A DNA stretch of 12,254 nucleotides, from positions 1 through 12,254 of the forward strand of contig JAUVEG010000013.1 in NCBI GenBank assembly GCA_030594925.1, in the 5' to 3' direction. The stretch is from Gammaproteobacteria bacterium. GTDB taxonomy: Bacteria > Pseudomonadota > Gammaproteobacteria > Chromatiales > Chromatiaceae. The translations under genes and the position numbers were made by a program. This document shows, one piece after another, positions 1 to 12,254 of this stretch. The notes under the pieces are model-generated. The model was not told where the DNA came from and did no database searches. It worked only from the letters and a program-made list of their open reading frames with translations. Each line of letters opens with the position of its first letter. Position 1 is the stretch's first letter.

Positions 1-293
1 ACTTTTTCGGCGGCAATCACGGGGATAGCGGCATTCAATGCCTCGATGCGCTCTCTACCCCATTCGTCATCGATTTCAGCCACCACAGCAACGCATCCGG
101 CATCAACCGCCTGTTGCAGATAATCGAGTCCATGCTCACGGGTTCCCGTGAGCGCAATGAACAGCGATCCTGGAGTCAGCCTGCGGCTGTCCAGTGATAG
201 AGCAGTGACCGCAAGCTGCGCCAGTTCCGGCTGCAATCCATCAAGCAGTTCTCCAAGCCGGGTGGTGTTTGACAGCTGTGTCGCCGGCATCAT
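1..293 (-). CDS. murE: UDP-MurNAc-tripeptide synthetase MurE, N-terminal fragment
   Basis: MurE is the cytoplasmic ligase that adds the third stem-peptide residue (meso-diaminopimelate in most Gram-negatives) to UDP-MurNAc-L-Ala-D-Glu. Only the first 97 codons are present; the gene runs off the window's left edge. The translation begins MMPATQLSNTTRLGELLDGL and contains a LSLDSRRLTPGSLFIAL stretch, the typical N-terminal uridine-nucleotide-binding region of MurE, followed by GTREHGLDYLQQAVDAG. The ATP-binding and catalytic domains lie outside. The start is the first of two adjacent ATG codons. It overlaps the ftsI stop as ATGA, and a strong GGAGGT Shine-Dalgarno sits six bases upstream. This is the usual dcw order, so the gene should be co-transcribed and translationally coupled with ftsI. 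The identification rests on the N-terminal pattern plus position. Confidence 0.93.
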   Translation of the reverse strand, partial: MMPATQLSNTTRLGELLDGLQPELAQLAVTALSLDSRRLTPGSLFIALTGTREHGLDYLQQAVDAGCVAVVAEIDDEWGRERIEALNAAIPVIAAEK

Positions 294-2065
294 TGCACAC
301 CTCCGGCACTCGCCACCTGCAGCTCTGCTTTGGCGTGTTTTTTGTCAGGAGCAACATTCAACAGTCTCAACGCATGCCCCATCACTTCAGAGAAGACGGG
401 GGCTGCTACCTGCCCCCCGTAAAATCCATTTTTACGCGGCTCATCGAATACAATCACCATCACCAGTTTCGGGGCTGTCGCCGGCGCCATTCCCGCAAAC
501 AGGGCACGATATTTCTTCTTCTTGTCTTTATACCCCTGCGCCCCCAGCTTGATTACCGTTCCGGTTTTACCGGCAACCCGGTAACCACTCACAGCCGCCT
601 TTGGCGCCGTTCCCTGTGCAGAAACAACTCCCTCCATCATCCTGCGCAATGATCTCGCCGTCTCGACGGACAGCACCCGCTCTCCCTCGGCCGGTTTATC
701 GACACGCAACAGGGAGAGTGGACGCCGGATACCATCTGCAGCAAGAATTGAATAGGCCTGCGCAAGTTGCAACGTTGATACGGAGAGACCGTAACCAAAC
801 GCAAGGGTTGCCTGATCGATGCGCCTCCATAATCCGTAGTCACGCAAAATCCCACTCGCTTCGCCGGGAAAATCAATCATCACCTGCTGTCCGAAGCCAT
901 AGCGATCCAGCATTTTCCAATGATCTTTTTCGGGCATTTTCAAAGCGATGGTTGCTGACCCCACATTACTGGAGCGGCGCAGCACTCCGGCAGGGTCGAG
1001 CACACCATAGCGTTTTGGATCGGCCACCTTATTCCTGCCAATCTTGATAAATCCTTTACCGGTATCAATTTTCGTACTTTCGGTGATGTACCCAAGCTCC
1101 ATAGCAGCAGCAAGCGTCAGCGGTTTCATCGTGGAACCAGGCTCAAAAGTATCGATGATAGGACGATTGCGCACTTTCCCTCCGAGGTTGCCTCGACTGG
1201 CATTCGGGTTATAGGAGGGCTGGCTCACCATCGCCAGCACTTCTCCGCTATCGACGTCCAGCATCACCAGTGATGCCGATTTGGCCTGATGTTTGACGAC
1301 CGCTTTTTTCAACGCCCGATAGGCGTAGAACTGCAAACGGCGATCCAGGCTCAGCACAATATCCTTGCCACCCTGCGGCTTGCGAATACTTGCAACATTT
1401 GCCAACAGATGCCGCCTGGCGTCTTTTAATACCAGCTTTCGCCCTGCCTCGGCATTCAACTCTTCATCATATTGAAACTCCAGTCCCTCCAGCCCTCTTT
1501 CATCACGCCCGGAAAAACCGATCACATGAGAAAAATATTCGCCTGCAGGGTAGTAGCGGCGGTATTCACGTTGCAAGCCAACTCCTTTGACTCCTTTCTC
1601 TTTCAGTATCGCCATCACCTTGCGTGCATGAGCTGGATTCATCCAGCGGGCCAGATAAAAAAAATGTTTGTTGCGGTAACGCGAGAGTTTCTGACGCAGA
1701 TCATCGGCATTCTTTTTTAATGCTTGCGCAAGGATTTTGACAGTCTCATTATCCTGGGGCAGGATTCTCGGATCGGCCCATACAGAGTCTACCGGGTTAC
1801 TTACAGCCAGCACCTCATCGTTGCGATCAAGGATTCTGCCGCGTCGCGCCGGCACATCCATATAACTGATGTGCTTGTAATCCCCCTTCTTCTGTAAAAA
1901 ATCCGTGCGCAAAATTTGCTGGTACCAGGCGCCGGCAATTAACATAACGGCAGCGCACAGCAAGCCCCCGATCATCAAACGGCGACGCGCAGCAAAGCAG
2001 GGGGCAGCCGTCTTTTTTGTCCGCCGCGCCTGCCTGCCTTTATTATGTCGCTGTTTCCCCGCCAT
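290..2065 (-). CDS. ftsI: Peptidoglycan D,D-transpeptidase FtsI (PBP3)
   Basis: FtsI is the class B penicillin-binding protein that cross-links septal peptidoglycan in the divisome. The 591-residue protein matches the usual length. It has a basic cytoplasmic tail, one membrane segment at about residues 30-48, and a pedestal domain with the conserved VPARRGRILDRN motif near 71-82. The transpeptidase domain carries all three active-site motifs: S311-T-M-K314 (nucleophile Ser311, in FEPGSTMKP), S365-S-N367, and K500-T-G502. FGYGLSVSTLQL near 423-434 is another family signature. The ATG overlaps the ftsL stop by one base (TAATG), and the stop overlaps murE (ATGA), so translation is probably coupled along ftsL-ftsI-murE. 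No active-site residue is missing. The C-terminal tail after about residue 572 is hydrophilic and poorly conserved, as is common in this family. Confidence 0.98.
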   Translation of the reverse strand: MAGKQRHNKGRQARRTKKTAAPCFAARRRLMIGGLLCAAVMLIAGAWYQQILRTDFLQKKGDYKHISYMDVPARRGRILDRNDEVLAVSNPVDSVWADPRILPQDNETVKILAQALKKNADDLRQKLSRYRNKHFFYLARWMNPAHARKVMAILKEKGVKGVGLQREYRRYYPAGEYFSHVIGFSGRDERGLEGLEFQYDEELNAEAGRKLVLKDARRHLLANVASIRKPQGGKDIVLSLDRRLQFYAYRALKKAVVKHQAKSASLVMLDVDSGEVLAMVSQPSYNPNASRGNLGGKVRNRPIIDTFEPGSTMKPLTLAAAMELGYITESTKIDTGKGFIKIGRNKVADPKRYGVLDPAGVLRRSSNVGSATIALKMPEKDHWKMLDRYGFGQQVMIDFPGEASGILRDYGLWRRIDQATLAFGYGLSVSTLQLAQAYSILAADGIRRPLSLLRVDKPAEGERVLSVETARSLRRMMEGVVSAQGTAPKAAVSGYRVAGKTGTVIKLGAQGYKDKKKKYRALFAGMAPATAPKLVMVIVFDEPRKNGFYGGQVAAPVFSEVMGHALRLLNVAPDKKHAKAELQVASAGGVQ

Positions 2066-2340
2066 TACTCTATTTCCAAAACCTCTATCTCTTGCATACC
2101 AGGTGTACGCATTTGCAACTTGTTTCGTGCACTTTTCTCGATACGCCCATAATCAGCAAAGGTCGCCAACTCGACCTGCAACTGCCCCTGCGTCACACTC
2201 AATTTATCAGCCTCGGTGCGCAATGCTTCACGCAGCGCAAACAGTTGGCGTGTTTGCTGCTTTGACTCGACAACCTTTAACGCCGTCCACACAACGACCA
2301 CCAGCAAACCGGTGATCAGCAGCATACGGCTGCCGCTCAC
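2065..2340 (-). CDS. ftsL: Cell division protein FtsL
   Basis: FtsL is a bitopic membrane protein that joins FtsB and FtsQ and helps activate FtsWI at the septum. The 91-residue product has a very short cytoplasmic end, a hydrophobic membrane segment at about residues 6-23 (LLITGLLVVVVWTAL), and a charged, heptad-like coiled-coil region at about 25-75. It is shorter than E. coli FtsL (121 residues), mainly at the cytoplasmic N-terminus. The start codon is GTG and overlaps the rsmH stop as GTGA. A GGAG Shine-Dalgarno at 2349-2352 with an 8-base spacer supports this start. The primary sequence is weakly conserved in this family, so the call relies on size, topology and its place between rsmH and ftsI. 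Confidence 0.93.
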   Translation of the reverse strand: MSGSRMLLITGLLVVVVWTALKVVESKQQTRQLFALREALRTEADKLSVTQGQLQVELATFADYGRIEKSARNKLQMRTPGMQEIEVLEIE

Positions 2341-3275
2341 GCAGATTTCTCCGCGACTCTCAAACGGGAGCTGCGCGCACGCGGGTTCACCCGGACCTCC
2401 TCAAGCGAAGGCGTCACCGCCTTACCCACCAGATTCAGTTGAGGCGGTTGCAATTGCGAAGCCATCACGGGGACACCTCTTGGCAACGTATCGACACGTG
2501 AGTGAGCACGCAGGAAGCGTTTCACAATCCTATCCTCAAGCGAATGAAAACTGATTACTGACAATCGCCCCCCTGGTCCAAGTATTGATAAAGCCTGTTC
2601 AAGCACAGCCGAGAGTTGCTGCAGCTCCTGGTTGATGCGTATCCTTATTGCCTGAAAAGTGCGTGTAGCCGGATGCTTTCCCGGCTCTTTTCCCGGCACG
2701 GCCTGCTCGATCAACTCTGCAAGCTCTCTTGTTGTCATCAACGGCCTCTCTTGCCGCTGCGCCACGATGGCGGTCGCAATGCGCCCGGAGAATCTCTCCT
2801 CACCATATTCGCTCAAAACCTGCTTGATCTCCTTTTGTGATGCCTCCAGCAGCCATGATGCTGCTGACAGCTCATCATCTGGATTCATGCGCATATCCAG
2901 CGGTCCATCGCGCATGAAACTAAAGCCCCGCTGCGCATCCTCCAGTTGCGGAGATGAAACCCCAAGATCCAGCAGCACACCATCGATCTCCCCCTTAATC
3001 CCCAGCTTCACGGAAATATTCTCAAGCGCGTCAAAGGATGCATGCTCAATCGAAAAACGCGGGTCATCTCCAATCACTACAGCAGCGCTCCTGATTGCAT
3101 CCGGATCACGATCCAGCGCCACTAAACGCCCATCGGCGCCAAGTCGCTGCAGAATCAACGAGCTATGCCCGCCGCGGCCAAAAGTCGCATCCACATAGAT
3201 TCCGTCTGGCTTGATTGAGAGTGCATCGACTGCCTCATGCAGCAACACAGGGCGATGATTGAATAATTCCGTCAC
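2337..3275 (-). CDS. rsmH: 16S rRNA (cytosine(1402)-N(4))-methyltransferase RsmH
   Basis: RsmH (MraW) uses S-adenosylmethionine to methylate N4 of C1402 in the 16S rRNA P-site. The 312-residue protein has the full family pattern: HRPVLLHEAV at the start, the SAM-binding motif DATFGRGGHS (29-38), LLDLGVSSPQL (101-111), RGFSFMRDGPLDMRM (116-130), HPATRTFQAIRIRIN (201-215), SFHSLEDRIVKRF (242-254) and a C-terminal NPRARSSRLR. The start is a GTG four bases after the mraZ stop. Its Shine-Dalgarno is poor, which suggests translational coupling to mraZ. The stop overlaps ftsL. RsmI, which adds the 2'-O-methyl group to the same nucleotide, is encoded about 5 kb away in this window. Confidence 0.98.
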   Translation of the reverse strand: MTELFNHRPVLLHEAVDALSIKPDGIYVDATFGRGGHSSLILQRLGADGRLVALDRDPDAIRSAAVVIGDDPRFSIEHASFDALENISVKLGIKGEIDGVLLDLGVSSPQLEDAQRGFSFMRDGPLDMRMNPDDELSAASWLLEASQKEIKQVLSEYGEERFSGRIATAIVAQRQERPLMTTRELAELIEQAVPGKEPGKHPATRTFQAIRIRINQELQQLSAVLEQALSILGPGGRLSVISFHSLEDRIVKRFLRAHSRVDTLPRGVPVMASQLQPPQLNLVGKAVTPSLEEVRVNPRARSSRLRVAEKSA

Positions 3276-3279
3276 CCTG

Positions 3280-3747
3280 TTACAGATTCAGGTTTTCAAT
3301 TTCTGCCGAGACTTCCGAGTCAGGATCCTGCAAGGCCAACATATTCTCCTCTTCAACCTGCTGCGCCATCTGCTGCGACCAGATCTCAAGCCTGCGCCCC
3401 TTGCCAATAATCGCGATCTGCTCGCCAGCCACCAGCCCCGCATGCTCACGATGTTTCTGCGGCAGCAGAATCCGCCCCTGTCCATCAAGATCCAGTTCGT
3501 AGAGATTGGAGAATAGAATATGTTGAATTTGTGAATAATGCTTATTCAGTGCAGGCAGATTACCCACCACCTCGGCAGTCTTCTCCCACTCATCCCAGGG
3601 GTACATCCACAAACTTTTTTCCCCCCTCGGATGGATCGTCACTGCAACCCGGGAACCGCCACTGTTACGCAAACCTTCACGGTGACGCGCAGGAATGGCA
3701 GCACGCCCCTTGGTATCCAGTTTGACAAGATTGGTTCCGAAGTACAT
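3280..3747 (-). CDS. mraZ: Transcriptional regulator MraZ
   Basis: MraZ is a ring-forming DNA-binding protein with two AbrB-like halves that represses the dcw operon it heads. I choose the ATG at 3747, giving 155 residues beginning MYFGTNLVKLDTKGR, which matches the family's usual start; an in-frame ATG 15 codons upstream would add an atypical tail from inside a repeat element. The two conserved DxxGR motifs are visible: D11-T-K-G-R15 and D88-G-Q-G-R92 (followed by ILLP). The acidic C-terminal extension (about residues 129-155) is a little longer than in E. coli. No strong Shine-Dalgarno is visible. Tandem TGGGG boxes of the kind MraZ binds lie just past the predicted transcription start, so autoregulation is likely. 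Confidence 0.96.
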   Translation of the reverse strand: MYFGTNLVKLDTKGRAAIPARHREGLRNSGGSRVAVTIHPRGEKSLWMYPWDEWEKTAEVVGNLPALNKHYSQIQHILFSNLYELDLDGQGRILLPQKHREHAGLVAGEQIAIIGKGRRLEIWSQQMAQQVEEENMLALQDPDSEVSAEIENLNL

Positions 3748-3774
3748 GGGTGACTCAGTTGGTGTTTTCTTTAT

Positions 3775-3931
3775 TAAGGAAACTCTGGTCAAGTCGCTTC
3801 GCGCCTCGAACAGAGCATTCCTACAAGTTTTTCTACGGGGGAATGGCCAGCGATCAATGAGTTATAAAGGGGTCGTTCGCTTTCCCCTTCCCCCGAACCC
3901 CCATCCTATGAGCTTATTCAGAGGCTCCTTA
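3775..3931 (+). repeat. Dispersed inverted-repeat element, copy 1 (in mraZ leader)
   Basis: This 157-bp block matches 8414-8569 at both ends: by eye about 85-90% over the first ~69 bp and the last ~50 bp, with an unrelated core of roughly 37 bp. Its ends form an imperfect inverted repeat of about 18 bp (AAGGAAACTCTGGTCAAG against AAGGAGCCTCTGAATAAG), flanked by TA on both sides. Inside is a perfect 8-bp stem, CGGGGGAA (3836-3843) with TTCCCCCG (3888-3895). It carries no ORF with coding character. It lies between the mraZ promoter and the mraZ start, so it should be transcribed in antisense orientation as part of the dcw leader. The TA flanks and terminal repeats resemble a MITE-like non-autonomous element, but the family is not identified. 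Confidence 0.85.
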
Positions 3932-3964
3932 GTTTGTTATTAAAAGGCGGGAAGCACCTAAATT

Positions 3965-3979
3965 CCCCACTTTCCCCCA
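3965..3979 (-). promoter_or_regulatory. Tandem MraZ operator boxes
   Basis: On the minus strand there are two TGGGG pentamers (3979-3975 and 3969-3965) with a 5-base spacer, followed one period later by a degenerate AGGTG (3959-3955). MraZ is known to bind direct TGGGN repeats spaced by five bases upstream of mraZ. The boxes begin about 3-4 bases after the predicted transcription start, which fits autorepression of the dcw operon. Confidence 0.8.
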
Positions 3980-3989
3980 CTTAATGGGA

Positions 3990-4018
3990 ATAATAGATGC
4001 TATACCCGCATTGGTCAA
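3990..4018 (-). promoter_or_regulatory. Sigma70-type promoter of mraZ and the dcw operon
   Basis: The minus strand reads TTGACC (4018-4013), a 17-base spacer, then TATTAT (3995-3990), a near-consensus sigma70 promoter. Transcription should start near 3983, giving a leader of about 235 bases that contains the MraZ boxes and repeat copy 1. The remaining stretch up to rnpB (4019-4187) is AT-rich, with no gene or clear hairpin terminator that I can see. Confidence 0.8.
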
Positions 4019-4187
4019 GGTAAAAGCAGAAAAAATTGATAATTAACAATAACTTAGAATAGAATAATCATCTGTATAAAAAACAGGGTGATGAGGAGTT
4101 AAGTTAAAGTTGATTATGAAGAAATGGGCGGGAAAAACGGATAAAACAGGGAGAATAACGCGGAAAGCATGAAAAGTGGGGAGAGGT

Positions 4188-4547
4188 GGGAGCCAGCCTG
4201 TAAGCCGGGTTCTGTCGTGGATAATCATTCATCTGGGTAATGCGTCACCGCATACCTCAAGCGACCTACCCGGAAGCCACCTGCGGACCACAGGCTGTGC
4301 GTACACAAGCTTCCCTATTTGGTCTTGCTCCGAGTGGGGTTTACCATGCCACTACTGTTGCCAGCAGCGCGGTGCGCTCTTACCGCACCATTTCAACCTT
4401 ACCGGCAGTCACAGACTGCTTAGGCGGTATATTTTCTGCTGCACTTGCCGTCGGATCACTCCGCCCAGGCGTTACCTGGCACCCTGCCCTGCGGAGCCCG
4501 GACTTTCCTCCATCAGTAAACTGACAGCGATTAACCGGCCAACTCCC
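4188..4547 (-). ncRNA. rnpB: RNase P RNA, bacterial class A
   Basis: This is the catalytic RNA of ribonuclease P, which removes the 5' leader from pre-tRNAs with the RnpA protein. On the minus strand the conserved blocks occur in order: GAGGAAAGTCCGGGCTCC, AGGGTGCCAGGTAACGCCTG, GCGGTAAGAGCGCACCG, GGCAACAGTAGTGGCA, GGTAAACCCCACTCGGAGCA, AGACCAAATAGG, CCGGGTAGGTCGCTTGAG, AGATGAATGATTATCCACGA and CAGAACCCGGCTTA. The ends were set from helix P1: GGGAGTTGGCC at the 5' end pairs over 11 bp, with G-U pairs, with GGCTGGCTCCC at the 3' end. The length of about 360 nt is normal for type A. The 3' end is approximate because processing cannot be seen. Its place just upstream of mraZ matches Pseudomonas-type genomes. 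Confidence 0.97.
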
Positions 4548-4553
4548 ATAAAG

Positions 4554-4582
4554 AAAATAGCTGTTGGGGGATGAAAAATCAA
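4554..4582 (-). promoter_or_regulatory. Sigma70-type promoter of rnpB
   Basis: The minus strand reads TTGATT (4582-4577), a 17-base spacer, then TATTTT (4559-4554). The first G of helix P1 (4547) lies seven bases past the -10 box, so the promoter position and the structurally inferred 5' end of the RNA agree. Confidence 0.72.
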
Positions 4583-4597
4583 GGGGAGAGTTACTAA

Positions 4598-4654
4598 GGT
4601 TTTAGGTTTTAGGTTTTAGGTTTGCTGCCTACTGCCAACTGACGGCTGCCAACT
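4598..4654. repeat. In-phase heptamer repeat array between rnpB and the HerA-type gene
   Basis: Eight consecutive 7-base units can be read without a phase break. First come three perfect GGTTTTA units (4598-4618), then a transitional GGTTTGC, then TGCCTAC, TGCCAAC, TGACGGC and TGCCAAC (4626-4653). The first half resembles a telomere-type repeat; the second half is a different, degenerate unit with the same period. It lies upstream of the rnpB promoter and just past the HerA-type gene's stop. It has no coding potential and no known function. Confidence 0.8.
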
Positions 4655-4659
4655 CTCTT

Positions 4660-6327
4660 TCACTTATGGTTTTGCGTGCGCCACAGATTGACAATCTCCT
4701 CCACATCCAGATCATCGGGACCTTCGCGCCAGCTGGTATAGTAGTCGACATCGGTGTTTCTGGGCGGCGGGTCGGGCCGGTAAACCTGGACACGCGTCGG
4801 CATTGGAGCCGCCTCGCCCAGCACCAGCGCCTCACCCCGCCCCAGGGAGGCCAGCATATCCGTCAAATCGCCCTCGGCCTCCGGCACCATTGCCCGGATA
4901 TACTCCTGGTCATCGGGGTTTGTTGTGCGCAGGCAGATAAATGAACTGCACTGCGAGAGCATGGTCTCGGAGAGTTCGGTCGGACGCTGGCTGACCACCC
5001 CGATGGAGACGCCATATTTGCGCCCCTCCTTGGCTATCCTCTCCATCATTTTTTTGGTCCCCTCGAACTGCCCGCCTTTCTCCCGGGGAATATAGGCATG
5101 CGCCTCTTCACAGATCAGGGTGATGGGAAAATCATGGCGCCTCGGGTTCCAGTAGTTGAACTCATACGCCAGACGCCCCACCTGTGCTGAAATTGCCGGG
5201 CGAATATCGGTCGGCACAGAGCTTAAATCAATAATGGTGATATTCGCCTTGTTGCTGCCCAGACCGATGAAATCACGCATCAGTTCACTCAAGCTGGCAG
5301 AGCTGGTGCGTTTTTTAGGCTTGAGTAAAAAATCATAGCGAACATCATTGAAGCGGCTCTCCATTCTGACCAGGAGTTCATCAAATTCACCAAACAATGC
5401 CCCCTTGACCTTGCCAAACTCCTTTCTCTCCCCGTTGGCGCTCTTGAAGAGCTGATAGAGATCGGCCAGGGAAAAATAGATGGGCGTGTCAACAGATACC
5501 CCCTTCAAACCAATCGCTTTCGCCTCCTTGGCCCTGAGTGTTTGCAACACCTGGCGCATAAATGCCATTTGCGTCGATGCGCCGGGGTCCGATCGATCGA
5601 TAAACAGGTCGATGAGCTCTGCATAACTCATCATCCAATAAGGCATTTCAAGTTCGAGAGCATCGACATAATTGACTTTGCCTTTGGCGAAAGCTGTCTG
5701 CCTGACCCCCTGCTCATCTTCCCAGCAATACTCCCCGTGCAGATCCAGGATGATCATATGGGATTTTGGCATGGCTTTGAGTGTATGTTGAAGCAGGCTG
5801 GTCACCGTCCAGGATTTACCTGCACCGGATTGGCCTATGATCGCAAAATGGCGCCCGAAGAGTGCGCGAGGATCAAGACTGACGTGGTAATCTTTCTTCG
5901 CCGCCAGTTGGCCAATATAGAATCCATACTCCCTGAATGTCGAGAAAATCGAATTGATCTCGTCGAAACCAACCGCAAAGACCTTTGCACCCGGCGTCGG
6001 ATAATGCCTGACGCCACGGATAAACTTGCCGTCCTCCTGAATTTCACCGACTGGAATCAAGGAGATATAGCGGGCCGTATAACTCCCTCCATTGCGATCC
6101 AAACGATCCCTCTCCCACATCTTGTGAACCAACGCCAGGATACTAATGTCAGACTGGCGGATCGCAACATACGACCCCAGGTGGCCGGCCAGAGTCTCCT
6201 CATTACCTATTTTGATGAGAGGATTGTTATTGGCATACTCATCAACGACACGGGCATCCATTCCATCCCCCCTGACATCGGTCAGAGAGGCAATCTGGAT
6301 AACCGGGGACTGGGATTCGGAGATCAT
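4660..6327 (-). CDS. HerA-type (FtsK/HerA superfamily) P-loop ATPase
   Basis: This 555-residue protein looks like a HerA-family hexameric DNA-translocating ATPase. Residues about 10-145 resemble a HAS-barrel (G-rich beta segments such as GNEETLAGHLGSYVAI and YISLIPVGEI). The ATPase core follows: Walker A G165-QSGAGK-S172, DLHGEY at 195-200, Walker B ITLICEEAHAYIP (402-414, acidic E407-E408), basic stretch AKEGRKYGVSIGVVSQRP (432-449) containing the sensor S446-Q447-R448, then the C-terminal region with CLRTTNPDDQEYI. HerA proteins act with the NurA nuclease in end resection, or with SIR2 or DUF4297 effectors in phage defence; no such partner is encoded here. The only same-strand neighbour is a small unknown gene 54 bases upstream. 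The ATG has a GGGAAG six bases upstream. The fold is confident; the role and substrate are unknown. Confidence 0.88.
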   Translation of the reverse strand: MISESQSPVIQIASLTDVRGDGMDARVVDEYANNNPLIKIGNEETLAGHLGSYVAIRQSDISILALVHKMWERDRLDRNGGSYTARYISLIPVGEIQEDGKFIRGVRHYPTPGAKVFAVGFDEINSIFSTFREYGFYIGQLAAKKDYHVSLDPRALFGRHFAIIGQSGAGKSWTVTSLLQHTLKAMPKSHMIILDLHGEYCWEDEQGVRQTAFAKGKVNYVDALELEMPYWMMSYAELIDLFIDRSDPGASTQMAFMRQVLQTLRAKEAKAIGLKGVSVDTPIYFSLADLYQLFKSANGERKEFGKVKGALFGEFDELLVRMESRFNDVRYDFLLKPKKRTSSASLSELMRDFIGLGSNKANITIIDLSSVPTDIRPAISAQVGRLAYEFNYWNPRRHDFPITLICEEAHAYIPREKGGQFEGTKKMMERIAKEGRKYGVSIGVVSQRPTELSETMLSQCSSFICLRTTNPDDQEYIRAMVPEAEGDLTDMLASLGRGEALVLGEAAPMPTRVQVYRPDPPPRNTDVDYYTSWREGPDDLDVEEIVNLWRTQNHK

Positions 6328-6381
6328 ATGACTTCCCGATAAAAGTGTAAGTTCTCAAAAAAAGCCGTACATCGCTCGATG

Positions 6382-6771
6382 CTATACTGGTGGAGATTCA
6401 TGAACAGCTTCACTCCCCATGACGCCAATAATCGGTTCGAATGAAACAACATCCCGCTGCAGCGAGGCGACAACAGGACGAAGTCCTGCAAGAGAGACCT
6501 TGAGTTCATCACTCAACGGACACTTCAGGATATTCTGCTCCCGCGCCTCCATAATCTCCGTGAACTCGGCGTAGAGAGAGTCAAACATTGTCAAATATGC
6601 ATCCATCCCTGCATCATTTTCTCCCGTCAGTTGCTTTTTAGCGAGAGCAACACTACCAATCTTCATCAGCACTGCTACGCGTTCGGCTAGTGAGCTATTC
6701 ATATTTGAACACTTCGCCTTGTGCTCACAGTTGAATAGCTTGCTTTTGATGGAGCGAAATAGTTTATACAT
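6382..6771 (-). CDS. Small helical protein of unknown function
   Basis: I do not recognise this 129-residue protein. It has a basic N-terminus (MYKLFRSIKSKLF), a C15-x5-C21 pair with a His between (CEHKAKC), a third cysteine at 84, and long predicted amphipathic helices between about 26 and 110, with a proline-rich end. There is no signal peptide or convincing membrane segment. The ATG at 6771 has a poor Shine-Dalgarno; an in-frame ATG at 6702 (MNSSLAERVAVL) would remove the Cys pair and is an alternative. It ends 54 bases before the HerA-type ATPase on the same strand, so the two may be co-transcribed and functionally linked, but that is inference from position only. Codon use looks like that of real genes here, and no better ORF covers the stretch. 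Confidence 0.6.
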   Translation of the reverse strand: MYKLFRSIKSKLFNCEHKAKCSNMNSSLAERVAVLMKIGSVALAKKQLTGENDAGMDAYLTMFDSLYAEFTEIMEAREQNILKCPLSDELKVSLAGLRPVVASLQRDVVSFEPIIGVMGSEAVHESPPV

Positions 6772-6908
6772 TCTAGTCTATCCGATATTGAGTTGATACG
6801 GGAAGCAGATAACAAGCGGCAGCAACCTCGGTGGTCAGCAGAAGAACCCGGCATCCTTGTCCGGGGTCAATCACCCATATAATACCCCATGCCTGCTGAT
6901 ATCTGCCT

Positions 6909-6936
6909 CTTGATTTTACAAAATTCCACTCTATAT
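6909..6936 (+). promoter_or_regulatory. Sigma32-like heat-shock promoter of the small heat-shock gene
   Basis: CTTGATT (6909-6915), a 13-base spacer and CTCTATAT (6929-6936) fit the sigma32 pattern CTTGAAA / CCCCATNT. An overlapping sigma70 reading (TTGATT, 16 bases, TATATC) is possible. The leader would be about 30 bases. The rest of the gap (6772-6908) has no gene; it contains a second TATAAT at 6883-6888 with a poorly spaced TTGTCC. Confidence 0.55.
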
Positions 6937-6975
6937 CATCATTAACAAGACAAGAGATTAGATTGGAGAAATGAA

Positions 6976-7416
6976 ATGAATATGCTTGTACGAAACCCCT
7001 GGAACCTGCTCGACCAGTGGCACAATGAGATGGGGCAGTTGCTGAACACCCCCGCAGGGCGTGATGACACCAGCCTGGTCGAAGGCAGCGACTGGTCTCC
7101 TGCCGTTGACATCAAAGAGGAAGAGGAACGTTTTCTGATTCATGCCGATATCCCCGGAGTCAGCGCAGATGACATCGAAGTCTCGATGGACCAGGGCGTA
7201 CTGACTATCAAGGGAGAGCGCAAACACGAATCCACCGAGAGTGGAAAAGATTACAAACGCCTGGAGCGCTCTCACGGGGTCTTCATACGGCGCTTCTCTC
7301 TACCGGATACTGTCAATGCCGACAACATCAGCGCATCCAGTCAGGACGGCGTACTTGAAATCGTCCTGCCCAAGTCGGCGCCGCAGATGCCGCGCCGCAT
7401 AGAGGTTAACAGCTGA
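6976..7416 (+). CDS. Hsp20-family small heat-shock protein
   Basis: Small heat-shock proteins are ATP-independent chaperones that hold unfolding proteins in the cytoplasm as large oligomers. The 146-residue product has an N-terminal arm with the MNMLVRNPWNLLDQW start common in proteobacterial Hsp20s, then an alpha-crystallin domain at about 40-133 (WSPAVDIKEEEERFLIHADI, PGVSADDIEVSMDQGVLTIKG, and the GVLEIVLPK hallmark at 125-133). A short tail carries an I142-E-V144 oligomerisation motif. The ATG at 6976 has GGAG seven bases upstream; an ATG at 6971 is out of frame and stops at once. The gene is monocistronic, with a sigma32-like promoter upstream and a hairpin downstream. It stands apart functionally from its envelope and rRNA neighbours. 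Confidence 0.96.
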   Translation: MNMLVRNPWNLLDQWHNEMGQLLNTPAGRDDTSLVEGSDWSPAVDIKEEEERFLIHADIPGVSADDIEVSMDQGVLTIKGERKHESTESGKDYKRLERSHGVFIRRFSLPDTVNADNISASSQDGVLEIVLPKSAPQMPRRIEVNS

Positions 7417-7423
7417 TAAAGAT

Positions 7424-7458
7424 GCCCTGATCGAATCGTCATGCTCTTCGATCAGGGC
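7424..7458. terminator. Hairpin terminator between convergent hsp20 and rsmI
   Basis: A perfect 12-bp stem, GCCCTGATCGAA (7424-7435) with TTCGATCAGGGC (7447-7458), encloses an 11-base loop and starts eight bases after the hsp20 stop. A T-run (7469-7473) follows about 10 bases later on the plus strand; the minus side lacks a good T-tract. As it lies between converging genes it may serve both, though it is not a textbook intrinsic terminator in either direction. Confidence 0.7.
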
Positions 7459-7465
7459 TATATCC

Positions 7466-7498
7466 AGGTTTTTCTATTCCCCCAAACCCCCATCTCAT
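7466..7498 (+). repeat. Possible degraded third copy of the dispersed element
   Basis: The stretch AGGTTTTTCTATT followed by CCCCCAAACCCCCATCT closely resembles two conserved parts of the 157-bp element (AAGTTTTTCTAC and TTCCCCCGAACCCCCATCC) joined with the core missing. The following bases to about 7513 vaguely match the right end. The left end is absent. It looks like an internally deleted relic, but the match is short and C-rich. Confidence 0.4.
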
Positions 7499-7519
7499 CA
7501 ATTCATATCAGGATGGTGG

Positions 7520-8362
7520 TCACTTCTCTTTCATCTTCAACAGCAACTGATAGAGTTCCCGCTTTGGCTGGCCACTGATGCGGGCAGCGACTCTTGCAGC
7601 CTGGTTGGGCGGCATTTCATCGGCCAGTATCTGCAGCACTCTCTCGACAGAGCCCGGCAGCGTAACCCGGTTCTCACTCGCAGCAACCATGACCACAAAT
7701 TCACCGCGCTGCTGATTATTGTCCGCAGTCATCGTTTGCAGCAATCGGCCGAGCGGCTGATCGATAATGGTTTCATATCGCTTGGTCAACTCACGCGCCA
7801 CCACCACACGGCGATCCTCGCCAAACAGCGACCGCATATCATCCAAACAGTGCAGAATGCGGTGAGGTGATTCATAAAACACCAGCGTCGATGGAAAATC
7901 AATCAACTGCTGCAGACGCTTGCGGCGCTTTACCTGCGTACGAGGCAGGAAGCCCTCAAACAGAAATCGGTCCGTCGGCAATCCTGACGCCGACAATGCG
8001 GCAATAACAGCACTTGCCCCGGGCAGCGGGATAACATCCACCCCTCTCTCCCTGCAGGCGCTGACAATACGATAGCCCGGATCGCAAATCAGGGGCGTTC
8101 CCGCATCACTCACCAGGGCAATCTCTTTCCCGGCAAGCAGTAACTCGACAAGTTGCTGTGATCGTTGCCGCTCATTATGCTCATGAAAAGAGAGTGTTTT
8201 AGCGTCAATCCCCAGGTGAGAGAGCAATCCTGCAGTGTGCCGTGTATCTTCGGCGGCAATCAAATCAACCCGTTTCAGCACCTCGACAGCGCGCAGGGTG
8301 ATGTCCCCAAGATTACCGATAGGGGTGGCAACAACATAAAGCCTGCCTGTTTGCATTGACAT
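7520..8362 (-). CDS. rsmI: 16S rRNA (cytidine(1402)-2'-O)-methyltransferase RsmI
   Basis: RsmI (YraL) transfers a methyl group from SAM to the 2'-OH of C1402 in 16S rRNA, completing m4Cm1402 with RsmH. With the ATG at 8362 it has 280 residues, close to the family norm. It shows the tetrapyrrole-methylase-type fold motifs: LYVVATPIGNLGDIT (8-22), AAEDTRHT (36-43), SDAGTPLICDPG (85-96), PLPGASA (112-118), FLFEGFLPR (133-141), and VFYESPHR further on. An upstream in-frame TTG at 8389 would add nine atypical residues; AAGGG just before 8362 favours the ATG (or the one two codons later). The gene is divergent from lpoA, from which it is separated by repeat copy 2, and convergent with hsp20. Confidence 0.97.
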   Translation of the reverse strand: MSMQTGRLYVVATPIGNLGDITLRAVEVLKRVDLIAAEDTRHTAGLLSHLGIDAKTLSFHEHNERQRSQQLVELLLAGKEIALVSDAGTPLICDPGYRIVSACRERGVDVIPLPGASAVIAALSASGLPTDRFLFEGFLPRTQVKRRKRLQQLIDFPSTLVFYESPHRILHCLDDMRSLFGEDRRVVVARELTKRYETIIDQPLGRLLQTMTADNNQQRGEFVVMVAASENRVTLPGSVERVLQILADEMPPNQAARVAARISGQPKRELYQLLLKMKEK

Positions 8363-8413
8363 CTTGCCCTTCACTCCCGATACTTGCAACGGTATTTTAA
8401 TCTATTCTGGTGT

Positions 8414-8569
8414 TGAGGAAGCTCTGATCAAGTCGCTTCGCGTCTCGGGCAGAGCATCCCTGCAAGTTTTTCTACGGGGGAAGGGTTATCTATTATTGGT
8501 TTTTAATGGGAAATTCGGAACACCCTTCCCCCGAACCCCCATCCCATAGACTTATTCAGAGGTTCCTTA
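8414..8569 (+). repeat. Dispersed inverted-repeat element, copy 2 (upstream of lpoA)
   Basis: This is the second copy of the element at 3775-3931, in the same orientation relative to the plus strand. The left end GAGGAAGCTCTGATCAAG and the right end (reverse complement AAGGAACCTCTGAATAAG) form an imperfect terminal inverted repeat of 18 bp. An 11-bp perfect internal stem pairs CGGGGGAAGGG (8475-8485) with CCCTTCCCCCG (8523-8533). The right flank is TA; the left flank reads TG where copy 1 has TA. It fills most of the gap between divergent rsmI and lpoA and ends five bases before the lpoA ATG. An ORF reading through it in frame into lpoA appears to be accidental. Confidence 0.85.
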
Positions 8570-8574
8570 GTATT

Positions 8575-9876
8575 ATGCTACCACTTAAAAAACTTTTTCC
8601 GGCTTTTGCTCTTGCCCTTTCTCTTGCCATGTCAGGATGTACCTCCATGGGGCTGGATACCTTTGGAATCGGTGTCAATCAAGCCCGTGCAGATCGCGCC
8701 GAGACATTGGCAAACAAGGGAGACTACGCAGGCGCCGCCTACCTGTATGAGAACCTGGCGCGCTCAAATAAAGGCAGTAAGCGGCGTACCTACCTGCAGA
8801 AAGCCCTGAACTATTATGAGAGAGCAGGAGACAATGCTTCCGCTGCGCGTATCAGGATGGGAATTGCCAACGAAGCAATCACCACCTCGAATATCACGAC
8901 TGGTGAAATCGCTGTTCTACTCCCCTCATCCGGTGTCTACGCCAAAGCCGCCAATGCTGTTCGCCGGGGAATGGAGTCAGTGCATGCACGTCAGCCCGAG
9001 GGGAAACGCCCGACACTGCGCTATATCGACAGCAGCGACAGCAAACTCGCCGGCGCCATTGGAGAGGCTGATTCGGCAGCCATGATCATCGGCCCTCTCA
9101 GCAAGGCTTCCGTAAAACATGTTGTCTCCAAAGGCAAACCCAACTCCACCACCATCACTCTCAACCAGGTGAGTGATTACTCGCCAAAGGGGGTCTATCA
9201 ATTCGGCCTCTCCCCCATAGCGGAGGGGGAGATGATCGCTGAGAAAGCCTGGACAGACGGGCATCGCACAACAGCCATCATCTACCCGGATACAAGTTGG
9301 GGAAGCCGTTATGAAAAAGGCTTTCGGCGGAGCTGGAAATCCCTTGGCGGCGCTGTTGCAGGCAGTGTGCGTTACGCACAGAATAGCACCAGTTTCGGCG
9401 ATAAGGTCAAAGAGCTGATGAAAAACCCGGCGGATGCCGTATTTATCGTTGCCAAACCCAGCAAGGCGCGTCAAATTCGTGCTCAATTACTGCTCGCAGG
9501 CGGTAAAAGCCCAGCGGCTTACGCCTCCTCAACCGCCTATGACAGACGCCTTTATGGCCACAAGGATACTAATTTCGAGAATGTCTGGATACCGGTATTG
9601 CGCTGGACAGTGCCTGGAGCAACGTCTGCATCCATCCCCTCGTACCAGGAACTTGAGTCAGGCGGCGCCATTAATCCCGGCCTGGCAAAATTTTATGCTT
9701 TCGGCATTGATGCAATGCTGCTGGCGCTGAACGCAGGGGATATCAGCCGGGGAAAAGTTCTCAAAGGAGCGACCGGTGATCTGAGCCTCGACAGTAATGG
9801 TGTCGTCAGACGCAATATGCTATGGCTCCATTATCATAACGGCACTTTGACTCAACACCAGCCTCGCAGCAGCTAG
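8575..9876 (+). CDS. lpoA: Penicillin-binding protein activator LpoA, short form (outer-membrane lipoprotein)
   Basis: LpoA is an outer-membrane lipoprotein that reaches through the periplasm to stimulate PBP1A. The product starts MLPLKKLFPAFALALSLA and has a lipoprotein signal ending M-S-G-C22. A short helical, TPR-like region follows (about 36-100: ADRAETLANKGDYAGAAYLY, then YLQKALNYYERAGD). From about residue 111 there is a periplasmic-binding-protein-like domain (GEIAVLLPSSGVYAKAANAV, AAMIIGPLSKASV, VYQFGLSPIAEGE, TTAIIYPDTSWGSRY). At 433 residues it is much shorter than E. coli LpoA (678), with most of the difference in the N-terminal TPR domain. I start at 8575 because the lipoprotein signal begins there; the 23 extra upstream codons come from the repeat element. 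AGAGG at 8558-8562, 12 bases upstream, is a weak ribosome site inside the element's terminal repeat. yraN follows after 16 bases. Confidence 0.92.
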   Translation: MLPLKKLFPAFALALSLAMSGCTSMGLDTFGIGVNQARADRAETLANKGDYAGAAYLYENLARSNKGSKRRTYLQKALNYYERAGDNASAARIRMGIANEAITTSNITTGEIAVLLPSSGVYAKAANAVRRGMESVHARQPEGKRPTLRYIDSSDSKLAGAIGEADSAAMIIGPLSKASVKHVVSKGKPNSTTITLNQVSDYSPKGVYQFGLSPIAEGEMIAEKAWTDGHRTTAIIYPDTSWGSRYEKGFRRSWKSLGGAVAGSVRYAQNSTSFGDKVKELMKNPADAVFIVAKPSKARQIRAQLLLAGGKSPAAYASSTAYDRRLYGHKDTNFENVWIPVLRWTVPGATSASIPSYQELESGGAINPGLAKFYAFGIDAMLLALNAGDISRGKVLKGATGDLSLDSNGVVRRNMLWLHYHNGTLTQHQPRSS

Positions 9877-9892
9877 TGTTCCCCTCAGGAAA

Positions 9893-10249
9893 GTGAGCAG
9901 CAGGGAGACAGGAGGGCGCGCCGAGCAGTATGCGCTTGATTATCTGCGATCGCAGGGACTCAAGCTGGTCACACGCAACTTCCTGTGCCGCATGGGGGAG
10001 ATTGACCTCATCATGACGCACAAAAAACATCTCGTTTTTGTTGAGGTTCGCTACCGGAAAAACAGCAATTACGGAACCCCGGCGGCAACGATCAGCCGCA
10101 CCAAACAGAGCCGCTTGACGCGAACCGCAAATTTCTATCTGCAACGACAGGGGCATAACGCACCCTGCCGCTTTGACGTCGTTGCCATCGTCTCGCAACC
10201 GCAAGTAAAAATCGAGTGGATTCAAAATGCCTTTGAAGCAGTCGCCTAG
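9893..10249 (+). CDS. yraN: UPF0102 / YraN-family nuclease-fold protein
   Basis: YraN proteins have a restriction-endonuclease-like fold and no firmly established role. The 118-residue product carries the family pattern: RAEQYALDYLRSQGL (9-23), G35-E-I-D-L-I (acidic E36 and D38), VFVEVRYR (48-55, E51), TISRTKQSRL (66-75) and PCRFDVVAIV (91-100), ending IEWIQNAF. The metal-site pattern is E/D...E-x-R, as is common in this family. The start is GTG at 9893; AGGA lies only two bases upstream, a tight spacing, but no other start fits the conserved N-terminus. The gene follows lpoA by 16 bases and overlaps dolP by 23 bases. In E. coli and Pseudomonas diaA sits between yraN and dolP; here it is missing. 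Confidence 0.94.
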   Translation: MSSRETGGRAEQYALDYLRSQGLKLVTRNFLCRMGEIDLIMTHKKHLVFVEVRYRKNSNYGTPAATISRTKQSRLTRTANFYLQRQGHNAPCRFDVVAIVSQPQVKIEWIQNAFEAVA

Positions 10250-10832
10250 AAGCCTGCTGAGCATCTGCCTTAGCGTACTCATCCTGCTTCCGCTGCTGGG
10301 AGGTTGTACTGCTGCTGTTGTAGCAACCACCGCGACAGTTGCATCTACCATGCACGACAGGCGCACTACCGCCACCGTCATGGATGATCAGGAGATCAAA
10401 CTGCGCGCAAGAGCTACGCTAAGCGAGCATCCTGAAATCTCCGAACATTCACGCATACATGTCACCAGCTTTAACCGCCGCGTATTGATTTTCGGACAGG
10501 CCGAGAGCAGGGAGCTGGCGGATAAATTTGCACACCTGGTCAGCCGCCAGCCAAAACTCAAATCCGTCTACAACGAAGTTGAAGTAAGAGCGCGGGCTGA
10601 CAACCTGGATATCAGCAAGGACTCCGCCCTAACCAGCAAAGTCAAGGGATCACTGTGGCAGATCAGCATCAAGGGCTTTAACCCGACACGAGTCAAGGTC
10701 TCCACCACCCTGGGAAATGTCTATCTGCTCGGCCTGGTAACTCATGAAGAGGGACCTGCTGTCATCGAACATGTGCGCGGCATCAGCGGTGTAAAAAAGG
10801 TCATTGAGATCTTTGAATACCTTGAAGAGTAA
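10227..10832 (+). CDS. dolP: BON-domain outer-membrane lipoprotein, DolP (YraP)-like
   Basis: DolP is an outer-membrane lipoprotein with two BON domains; in E. coli it binds anionic phospholipid, gathers at division sites and supports envelope integrity. This 201-residue product has a lipoprotein signal ending L24-G-G-C27, then an Ala/Thr/Val-rich linker (AAVVATTATVASTMHDRRTT) also typical of YraP. Two BON domains follow, at about 54-122 (KLRARATLSEHPEI through VYNEVEVRA) and 130-198 (SKVKGSLWQI through VKKVIEIFEYL). Length is close to E. coli's 191. The ATG at 10227 lies inside the end of yraN, with no strong Shine-Dalgarno, so translation may be coupled to yraN. Together with lpoA it forms an envelope-lipoprotein operon. 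Confidence 0.93.
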   Translation: MPLKQSPRSLLSICLSVLILLPLLGGCTAAVVATTATVASTMHDRRTTATVMDDQEIKLRARATLSEHPEISEHSRIHVTSFNRRVLIFGQAESRELADKFAHLVSRQPKLKSVYNEVEVRARADNLDISKDSALTSKVKGSLWQISIKGFNPTRVKVSTTLGNVYLLGLVTHEEGPAVIEHVRGISGVKKVIEIFEYLEE

Positions 10833-10906
10833 CGGCTATCTCCAACAAAAACATCTCAACCACCTTTCTCCACAAGCTCGCTACAGCAGCTGGCAGAGAC
10901 AACCTG

Positions 10907-12238
10907 TTGACCGAAGCGTCCGACTGCTGGCCCTACGGCTATGACAACAGCCGTATACAGGCACAACCCGGAGCAGTTGTATTTGCATCTTCGCACGGTC
11001 AGATCAGGGAGATCATCGAGGTCTGCAGTCAAGCCGGTGCGCCGCTGGTGTGCCGTGGCAGCGGCACGGGGACAACAGGAGCGACAGTCCCCCTTGAGCA
11101 TGCCGTTGTGCTCTCATTCGAACGCATGCAGGAGATCATCGACATCGACCCTGCCAATCGTACCGCCACTGTTCAGCCCGGCGTCACTAACGCCGCGCTA
11201 CAGCAGGCCGTATCGCAATATCGGTTTTTCTGGCCACCCGACCCAACCAGTGCTGAAATCTGCACCATCGGAGGAAATCTCGCCTACAACTCTGCCGGCC
11301 CACGCGCCGTGAAATACGGCACCCCGAGAGAAAACACACTCGCCCTGAAAGCGATAACCGGTGATGCAAAAAGCTTTCACACAGGAACCCTCACCACCAA
11401 GGGAGTGGTTGGCTATGACCTGACACGCCTGCTGATCGGTTCGGAGGGAACCCTCGCGGTGATTACAGAGGCCACCCTGAAACTTACACCGCAGGCCGAA
11501 AGCAGACGCACCATGCGAGCCAGCTACCGGGATATCCACGCAGCAGCGCATGCTGTAGCCGCCATCATGTCGCAGCCTGTGACACCCTGCACGCTGGAGT
11601 TCATGGATCATTCTGCGTTGCAAATGGTGCGCAACTTCTCGGATCTGCAGCTGGATGCCGATGTTGGCGCCATGCTGATGATCGAGGTCGACGCCATGGA
11701 GCATGCCATCGATGAGGCCGCCGCACAGGTAGCCGCCGCCGCCAGAGTCGATGGCTGCAGCGAAATCCGCATCGCTAGCACACAGCAGGAGGTGGATCAG
11801 CTGTGGAAAACACGCAAGGCGCTCTCACCGGCATTGCGCAATATCGCACCAAAAAAAATCAACGAGGATGTCGTAGTTCCAATCTCACAACTGCCGCGTC
11901 TGATCGAAGGGCTTGAAAAACTCTCGCTGCAGCACCGCATACAAATCGTCAACTTTGGTCATGCGGGAAACGGCAACATCCACGTCAACCTGCTGACGAA
12001 CCCGGATGACCACGAGGAGACGGTGCGTGCCGAAGCCTGTCTGTCAGACATCTTCTCACTGGTGCTGGAACTGCAGGGAACCCTCTCCGGAGAACATGGC
12101 GTCGGACTTGTAAAACGTGATCACATCGCACGCGAACTTGATCCGGTTGCACTGCAGTTGATGCATCAAATCAAACGCCAGTTCGATCCAAACAACATCC
12201 TGAACCCCGGCAAGACCTTGCCGGAGACAGTAGATTAG
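10907..12238 (+). CDS. FAD-linked oxidase, GlcD / D-lactate dehydrogenase type (N-terminus probably longer)
   Basis: This is a VAO/PCMH-type flavoprotein of the GlcD/Dld family, which oxidises 2-hydroxy acids such as D-lactate or glycolate. From the TTG at 10907, 443 residues show the FAD-binding region (VVFASSHGQIREII, CRGSGTGTTG at 49-58, IGGNLAYNSAGPRAVKYG at 121-138, GYDLTRLLIGSEGTLAVITE at 169-188). The C-terminal cap has NFGHAGNGNIHVNLL (349-363), GTLSGEHGVG (391-400) and FDPNNILNPGK (426-436). No GlcE, GlcF or 4Fe-4S partner is visible before the window ends. Family-like sequence continues upstream in frame to about 10862 (FLHKLATAAGRDNLL), yet no ATG, GTG or TTG occurs there before an in-frame stop at 10823. 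TTG 10907 is therefore only the first conventional start. The substrate cannot be assigned. Confidence 0.9.
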   Translation: MTEASDCWPYGYDNSRIQAQPGAVVFASSHGQIREIIEVCSQAGAPLVCRGSGTGTTGATVPLEHAVVLSFERMQEIIDIDPANRTATVQPGVTNAALQQAVSQYRFFWPPDPTSAEICTIGGNLAYNSAGPRAVKYGTPRENTLALKAITGDAKSFHTGTLTTKGVVGYDLTRLLIGSEGTLAVITEATLKLTPQAESRRTMRASYRDIHAAAHAVAAIMSQPVTPCTLEFMDHSALQMVRNFSDLQLDADVGAMLMIEVDAMEHAIDEAAAQVAAAARVDGCSEIRIASTQQEVDQLWKTRKALSPALRNIAPKKINEDVVVPISQLPRLIEGLEKLSLQHRIQIVNFGHAGNGNIHVNLLTNPDDHEETVRAEACLSDIFSLVLELQGTLSGEHGVGLVKRDHIARELDPVALQLMHQIKRQFDPNNILNPGKTLPETVD

Positions 12239-12254
12239 TATCTATTTCTGAAAT

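Follow-up and report, generated by a model that had tools for sequence, protein, structure and literature searches.

What are the two similar non-coding blocks that stand beside mraZ and lpoA in a Chromatiaceae genome, and how did they come to lie there? We examined both in a 12,254-nucleotide (nt) stretch of a Gammaproteobacteria bacterium (GenBank assembly GCA_030594925.1, contig JAUVEG010000013.1, positions 1 to 12,254; hereafter the window) and conclude, with a probability of roughly 0.8, that they are copies of a non-autonomous transposable element of about 150 base pairs (bp), a miniature inverted-repeat transposable element (MITE) whose ends and choice of target are those of the IS5 group. 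A first-pass annotation of the same sequence had called the blocks MITE-like and non-autonomous, a view now upheld by dozens of dispersed copies, empty orthologous sites, a target-site duplication and no visible coding capacity. The outcomes it had named as refuting, a lack of further copies or of empty sites, did not occur. Its further suggestion of a mobile regulatory RNA cassette co-opted at promoters is not demonstrated by the data, which reveal an association with the stop codons of genes upstream, in most cases in sense orientation.

Copy number, empty sites and target-site duplications

BLASTN with copy 1 (beside mraZ) as query retrieved copy 2 (beside lpoA) at 80% identity (E = 1.6e-33), confirming that the two blocks are real and related, and found 48 places in the incomplete genome to which the window belongs (G000; 1.78 Mb, 72% complete). 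A covariance model of 153 positions built from 44 full copies gave 76 matches in G000 and 32, 45, 90, 68 and 0 in its genus-mates G001, G002, G003, G004 and G005, respectively (E up to 0.01, partial copies included; G005 is 56% complete). The model also exposed a third, decayed copy in the window, between the convergent genes hsp20 and rsmI, where the element had been described as present twice. Model matches occurred in 4 of 369 genomes of the class under stricter filters with eight candidates scored per genome (G000, G441 and G325, the latter two of one family, and weakly G369), and of 210 genomes of the order searched with a 20-mer pattern, 5 matched; these include G000 and all belong to the genus. 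In public species genomes the pattern, with at least 105 matching stretches, located the element in Sva-25, SG_15_bin39, CSMAG_134 and CSMAG_2860, to which G001–G004 are assigned on equal coordinates, and in the Arenicellales metagenome-assembled genome (MAG) MAG_Ve_Sed_14. Copies are 85–97% alike in G441 (11 copies) and 72% alike on average, with a maximum of 89%, in G000 (23 copies), so amplification looks more recent in G441. Copy 2 had no match among plasmids and phages, and the hairpin pattern had none among viral contigs. A 47-bp palindrome in G369 was not counted as a member, as its flanks extend the palindrome and do not repeat.

Relatives lack the element at a number of orthologous loci. 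Searching the genus with window positions 3000-9200 returned near-contiguous flanks in which copy 1 is missing from its site in G001–G004, and copy 2 is common to G003 and missing in G001, G002 and G004; G002 and G003 show some other sequence differences near these sites. A joined-flank search with 12 further copies, together with fetched loci, yielded element-free sites for loci L002 (three genomes), L005, L006, L013, L016, L023 and L030. Some of these sites carry short unrelated DNA, and other relatives keep the element or pieces of it there. The L023 site exists in three states, empty in G001 (GTG-TTAA-GGCGAA), full in G000 and reduced in G004 to a 43-bp solo hairpin (L214) that keeps the TTAA/CTAA flanks of the full copy, which gives a base-resolution view of a MITE family in a genus represented in this analysis solely by metagenome assemblies.

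To define the target we read the ends of 80 distinct near-full copies and dropped L027, at a contig edge, leaving 79 copies and 158 ends. Among the 47 genus copies, the four bases on either side are an exact duplication in 12 (shuffled mean 3.06). The same holds for 12 of the 18 copies of G441, which belongs to another family of the class (3.17 expected), and for 28 of all 79 (shuffled mean 6.23), and in each comparison 0 of 5000 shuffles reached the observed count. Further out, the adjoining four bases are not identical on the two sides in any copy. The flanking 4-mer reads YTAR at 47 of 79 left ends and 35 of 79 right ends, and exact pairs include ATAG, CCAA, TTTA, CTTA, TTCA and TTAT. Duplication of TA only cannot give pairs such as CCAA and CTTA, and we ruled it out on the matching outer bases of the 4-mers. 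The TA previously noted at three of the four window edges is thus present, as the centre of a 4-bp YTAR duplication and not as a unit of its own.

The ends themselves resemble those of Escherichia coli IS5A, GGAAGGTGCGAATAAG and GGAAGGTGCGAACAAG. The majority right end GGAACCTCTGAATAAG agrees with the former, and the majority left end GGAAGCTCTGATCAAG with the latter, at 12 of 16 positions each (binomial P 3.8e-5 in both cases). Scored against the better of the two IS5A ends, the 158 ends average 9.88, compared with 4.50 (sd 1.81) in 7802 shifted windows, and a score of at least 11 is reached by 71 of 158 ends and 15 of 7802 shifted windows; the window ends score 10 and 11 for copy 1 and 12 and 12 for copy 2. 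YTAR is the reported duplication of IS5 (PMC10359306). From these features we infer that an IS5-group transposase acting in trans would cut at the GGAA...TTCC ends and insert the element at a staggered cut of 4 bp, with YTAR as the preferred site, whereupon the four bases would be duplicated.

Stop codons, anatomy and decay

The duplication holds the stop codon of an open reading frame (ORF) of at least 100 amino acids (aa) in 18 of 47 genus copies, at the left end in 17 and at the right in 2, with both in one copy (genes at copies, for stop codons and neighbours alike, were called by a crude script that takes the longest ORF). Of the 31 copies with a YTAR duplication, 16 lie at a stop codon, whereas among the 242 other YTAR sites of these loci that are non-coding, 36 do (Fisher P 1.2e-5; another 532 YTAR sites in those loci were coding and fall outside the 242). 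Elsewhere the placement recurs in 4 of 18 copies in G441 and in 3 of the remaining 14. The left-end genes are genuine, with Pfam families assigned to 16 of the 17, including TruB, GatB, HemN, GTP cyclohydrolase I, YbeY, SecB and a TrkA-like protein, and the proposed position of each copy beside an envelope gene is accordingly no rule. Relatives with an empty site have the gene terminating at an identical position for L002 (TAT/CAT-TAA), L023 (TGT-TAA), L016 (GAT-TAG) and L005 (ACA-TAA/TAG). Of 19 coincidences in the 18 copies, 17 are at the left end, and hence in sense (binomial P 7e-4); taking all neighbours together, element and upstream gene share the same sense in 27 of 43 cases. Because Y-TAA and Y-TAG stop codons are YTAR sites, and the duplicated site beside the element preserves the stop codon, insertions there would leave proteins intact and become over-represented. 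Stop-codon placement illustrates how a YTAR-targeting element can spread through compact operons with their proteins undamaged.

The opposite end of the element often lies close to start codons. Where a sense ORF follows, the right end is 2-9 nt from its start codon in 7 of 25 cases (two sites being counted in two genomes each), and the right-end-only remnants L189, L190, L192, L194 and L195 end 0-7 nt before an ATG that opens at least 118 codons; L186 does not. AGAGG within the right end could act as a ribosome-binding site. Together, the stop-codon association and the right ends before starts suggest effects on 3′ untranslated regions (UTRs) and translation starts, and the element may donate translation-start and 3′-end signals.

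The element reads GGAAGCTCTG...CAGAGGTTCC and is bounded by terminal inverted repeats (TIRs). From left to right it consists of TIR-L, an internal inverse copy TIR-M that forms hairpin 1 with TIR-L, CAAGTTTTTCTA, stem 2 (arms YGGGGGAAGGG / CCCTTCCCCCR) around a core of about 36 nt, AACCCCCATCC and TIR-R. With refined limits and covariance model scores, the window holds the following features:

3774..3777, + strand: left target-site copy of copy 1 (TTAA); the empty G004 site reads CTTTATTAATTCG
3778..3928, + strand: copy 1, upstream of minus-strand mraZ; 143.5 bits; absent in G001–G004
3778..3795, + strand: TIR-L of copy 1, left terminal inverted repeat, from the alignment of copies
3804..3821, − strand: TIR-M of copy 1, internal inverse terminal repeat, hairpin 1 with TIR-L, from the alignment and computed fold
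3836..3846, + strand: stem 2 of copy 1, 5′ arm CGGGGGAATGG
3885..3895, + strand: stem 2 of copy 1, 3′ arm CCCTTCCCCCG
3896..3906, + strand: AACCCCCATCC of copy 1, the best conserved stretch (99% mean majority identity, 44 copies)
3910..3928, − strand: TIR-R of copy 1, right terminal inverted repeat
3929..3932, + strand: right target-site copy of copy 1 (TTAG)
7419..7521, + strand: third, decayed copy, with the core and most of stem 2 gone; 53.5 bits, E 1.9e-13
8413..8416, + strand: left target-site copy of copy 2 (TTGA)
8417..8566, + strand: copy 2, directly upstream of lpoA; 159.1 bits; present in G003, absent in G001, G002 and G004
8475..8485, + strand: stem 2 of copy 2, 5′ arm CGGGGGAAGGG
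8523..8533, + strand: stem 2 of copy 2, 3′ arm CCCTTCCCCCG
8534..8544, + strand: AACCCCCATCC of copy 2
8548..8566, − strand: TIR-R of copy 2, with AGAGG 5′ of the lpoA ATG
8567..8570, + strand: right target-site copy of copy 2 (TTAG)

The first-pass annotation described the terminal inverted repeats and the GC stem correctly, and CTCTG does have the two potential pairing partners that it named. Its non-coding claim also holds, as neither copy contains an ORF of at least 80 aa; an 82-aa ORF (3695-3943) crosses copy 1, and the lpoA ORF can be read from inside copy 2. Across the 44 copies the best conserved parts are the G5A2G3/C3T2C5 hairpin (mean majority identity 0.95 and 0.97 for the two arms) and AACCCCCATCC (0.99), above TIR-L (0.81), TIR-M (0.77) and TIR-R (0.78). 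The cores, which had been considered unrelated, keep about 62% majority identity and a recognisable ATCAATGGGTTATA.

TIR-L can pair with either TIR-M or TIR-R, and the computed folds of the two window copies differ accordingly: in copy 2 TIR-L is closed on TIR-R (z -3.27), and copy 1 forms hairpin 1 (z -2.24, with 4 of 200 shuffles equally good). Standard pairs fill 88.1% of cells with the hairpin 1 structure and 83.6% with the TIR-L/TIR-R structure, and the TIR-L/TIR-R pairs themselves are standard in 75.8% of cells. The covariation score exceeds all 500 shuffles for both structures. The count of different pair types stays within what shuffles give (reached in 272 of 500 for hairpin 1 and 393 of 500 for TIR-L/TIR-R), and so does the count of TIR-L/TIR-R pairs in which both partners have changed (268 of 500). 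Pair 21-33 is GC in 20 copies, AU in 18 and UA in 3, and pair 21-148 is AU in 21, GC in 18 and UA in 3. Since TIR-L, TIR-M and TIR-R change jointly in two main subfamilies, few independent events lie behind this signal, and the stem covariation sought since the first annotation exists while mainly following two or three subfamilies. The closing pair of stem 2 is C-G in 33 of 44 copies and U-A in 10.

Solo hairpins of 43 bp consist of TIR-L and TIR-M and are flanked by CTAA/CTAA in L269 (G441) and TTAA/CTAA in L214 (G004). TIR-M and TIR-R are direct repeats, and a deletion between them would leave such a hairpin; other copies retain the right end only, before a start codon. A 1-kb gap between element halves at L179 (G003) proved to hold an ORF between two separate remnants. 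Loci L010, L011, L015, L031, L058, L092 and L098 carry an insert of about 45 bp (like CTACATGGACGTAGGTGAGGGGCGTGAGCAGGGAGCGG) in the hairpin 1 loop, a second dispersed module with related inserts in L076 and L083. At L196 (G000 contig 36) another palindromic repeat (TCATTTCGACCAAAGGGAGAAATC...) is nested in the element core.

Known systems and rival explanations

Comparison with known systems places the element closest to the IS5 group. It shares the terminal bases (12 of 16 at the majority ends), the 4-bp duplication and the YTAR preference of E. coli IS5A, and differs in its 150-bp length, the lack of a transposase gene and an internal third copy of the terminal repeat; an autonomous relative was not found here. 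REP/BIME elements have RAYT (Y1) transposases and a GTAG signature, lie as palindromes after genes in many copies, and are not known to have target duplications or full terminal repeats; our element resembles them in copy number and in palindromes after genes but has both duplications and full terminal repeats, and the duplications argue against its being one of them. IS630/Tc1-derived MITEs (Correia, RUP) combine a TA duplication with a DDE_3 transposase, whereas the element has a 4-bp duplication and the DDE_3 family PF13358 is found in 0 of 6 genus genomes, where no IS630 parent was therefore found. ERIC duplicates TA. As summarized in a review (PMC10969869), the prokaryotic MITEs ERIC, Correia elements and QMITE2 are likewise short, mostly intergenic, bounded by TIRs and present in tens of copies, and QMITE2 lies mostly in 3′ UTRs; the term "stop codon" is absent from that review. 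The element stands apart from these MITEs by its 4-bp YTAR duplication, conserved G/C stem interior and exact stop-codon placement. It is a new MITE family, IS5-like in ends and target and unusual in its tripartite repeats, conserved interior and stop-codon landing. No description of it was found among the titles and abstract openings listed from the literature library searched, which leaves papers outside that library uncovered, and five element strings did not occur in the literature text searched; AACCCCCATCC occurs in some papers whose titles are unrelated to the element.

Several results weigh against an IS5-derived MITE. Exact duplications are lacking in 35 of the 47 genus copies (14 of them off by one base), and the Arenicellales MAG has them in 2 of 6, as matched by 1711 of 5000 shuffles. 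The parent transposase with matching ends that the first-pass annotation had envisaged was not found in searches for PF13358, PF05598 and PF01609, each in six mostly incomplete genomes; PF01609 is absent even from G441, which is 98% complete and has copies up to 97% alike. A cognate autonomous element or transposase is, for its part, not demanded of every accepted MITE. PF05598, which InsH carries, matches 3 of 14 control genomes and not E. coli, whose strain's IS5 content is unstated. At stop codons, L008 and L086, both among the 17, are one orthologous site in two genomes, relatives of L008 and L030 carry TGA where the filled site has TAA, and the gene end differs in the relative for L006 and L007. 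The enrichment at stop codons may also reflect survivorship rather than targeting: YTAR beside GGAA keeps TAA or TAG, so tolerance by itself would be able to generate the pattern. Insertion sequences are often missing from MAGs.

The transposase searches also returned candidates that did not qualify. An IS5/IS1182 parent sought through PF05598 gave a match in 1 of 6 genus genomes, a broken gene in G002 whose ends are of a different kind. PF01609 genes occur in 3 of the 6 genomes G003, G004, G240, G325, G369 and G441, three genes in all, and the element ends are absent from the fetched stretches around them. In G441, no terminal-repeat pairs around a gene-sized stretch were noticed among the matches listed. 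L244, pursued as a lead to an autonomous element, proved to be a truncated left end. L275:1253-3598 (G003) encodes a 781-aa protein with an N-terminal DruA domain (PF14236) and a C-terminal DDE transposase domain (PF01609).

These gaps leave some room for a MITE-like element moved by another transposase (IS701-like, IS630/Tc1-like or IS427-like) whose likeness to IS5 ends is chance or convergence. IS701 has a 4-bp YTAR target, and no IS5-type transposase was found in the genomes searched. IS711 is reported to target YTAR, duplicating TA only (PMC2266754). We consider such a mover unlikely: the outer bases of the 4-mers match (ATAG/ATAG, CCAA/CCAA, CTTA/CTTA), which TA alone does not fit, the IS630 domain is missing from all six genomes, and the ends fit IS5A far better than shifted windows do. 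That the blocks are instead a lineage-old duplicated regulatory region, not mobile DNA, is what the window alone might suggest, with its copies only beside mraZ and lpoA; the 76 genome matches, the empty sites and the target duplications refute this idea and leave it virtually no probability.

A different emphasis would make the element an RNA cassette that is mobile but maintained by selection, in which sense hairpins at gene 3′ ends act in mRNA, in stability or processing, and mobility only supplies copies. The 17 of 19 left-end coincidences, the conservation of stem 2 and AACCCCCATCC above the ends (0.95-0.99 compared with 0.77-0.81), the C-G and U-A exchange at the closing pair of stem 2 and the fold of copy 2 all fit such a role. 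We hold this account to be doubtful. The 17:2 count is biased, because left stop-codon duplications are under selection and right ones decay; neighbours overall are in sense in only 27 of 43 cases; and stem 2 could matter as an inverted repeat in DNA. Moreover, a T-tract after stem 2 is absent, copy 1 has the antisense orientation within the mraZ leader and folds less strikingly than copy 2, and the number of pair types stays within the range of shuffles.

Neighbouring genes and a hairpin motif in other phyla

Gene names in the window rest on the Pfam families MraZ, LppC (which we take to be LpoA), RsmI and HSP20. Copy 2 sits between the divergent rsmI and lpoA, and its right duplication stops four bases 5′ of the lpoA ATG at 8575. 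The target of copy 1 precedes the mraZ ATG (3747, minus strand) by 26 nt and lies between that ATG and GTGGGGGAAAGTGGG (3966-3980), which resembles MraZ operator boxes. This sequence is an exact match to the MraZ-box motif, a second exact match lies at 4176-4190 on the other strand, and a relaxed form of the pattern is no commoner than chance. The element now separates the MraZ-box-like GTGGGGGAAAGTGGG from mraZ and would lie reversed in the mraZ leader if mraZ is transcribed from the GTGGGGGAAAGTGGG region. An RNase P RNA occupies 4185-4546 and was the only match in an Rfam scan of the window at E up to 1, in which no curated model matched the element.

The interior of the element has counterparts elsewhere. 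The exact 20-mer CTTCCCCCRAACCCCCATCC also matches Desulfovibrio, Mailhella, Lentisphaerae, Clostridia, Sumerlaeota and others. We counted CTTCCCCCRAACCCCCATCC with up to two mismatches, against the reversed pattern, in 14 genomes selected for carrying the motif: it is in excess in G231 (18 vs 1) and G232 (17 vs 1), both Desulfovibrionaceae, in G242 (15 vs 0) and in the Lentisphaerae genome G234 (37 vs 9), and fares no better than the reversed pattern in G236 (23 vs 30), G237 (4 vs 3), G241 (1 vs 1) and G244 (3 vs 2). In other phyla a long hairpin precedes the motif, and downstream of CCCCCATCC comes a tail that is a mirror image of the arm. In 42 of 73 hairpins, after exclusion of element-family members and of poor or long stems, the parallel complement of a hairpin's own arm scored 16.1 on average against its own tail, compared with 11.24 (sd 0.46) for permuted tails (0/5000). 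Smaller excesses appeared for the reversed arm (13.98 vs 11.91, 0/5000), the reverse complement (12.21 vs 10.30, 0/5000) and the same strand (12.05 vs 10.91, 4/5000), and the test is not clean because related loci were not thinned.

The element interior and this cross-phylum module may be one module or may be convergent. It is improbable, though worth stating, that the module G5A2G3-loop-C3T2C5-RAA-C5ATCC is older and wider than the element and that the MITE is a vehicle delivering an unrecognised triplex-like 3′-end signal, in sense, exactly at stop codons; a nucleic-acid triplex would require a mirror-image tail of the kind described. A hairpin-plus-C-tract module shared with other phyla poses a specific, testable question. 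At 17 cross-phylum hairpin loci, Rfam at gathering level returned only tRNA, SRP and RNase P RNA, and one cross-phylum stretch gave only matches far below gathering scores; an identity with 'Skipping-rope' RNA proved a wrong guess. Placement of these hairpins after genes was judged by eye. At L049, L109, L038, L055, L095 and others (Desulfovibrionaceae, Lentisphaerae and Clostridia), hairpins of the form GGGGGAAGGG...CCCTTCCCCC-RAA-CCCCCATCC carry a mirror-image tail, exemplified by the arm AGGAAACTTTCT and the tail TCCTTCAAAGA, which could form a triplex.

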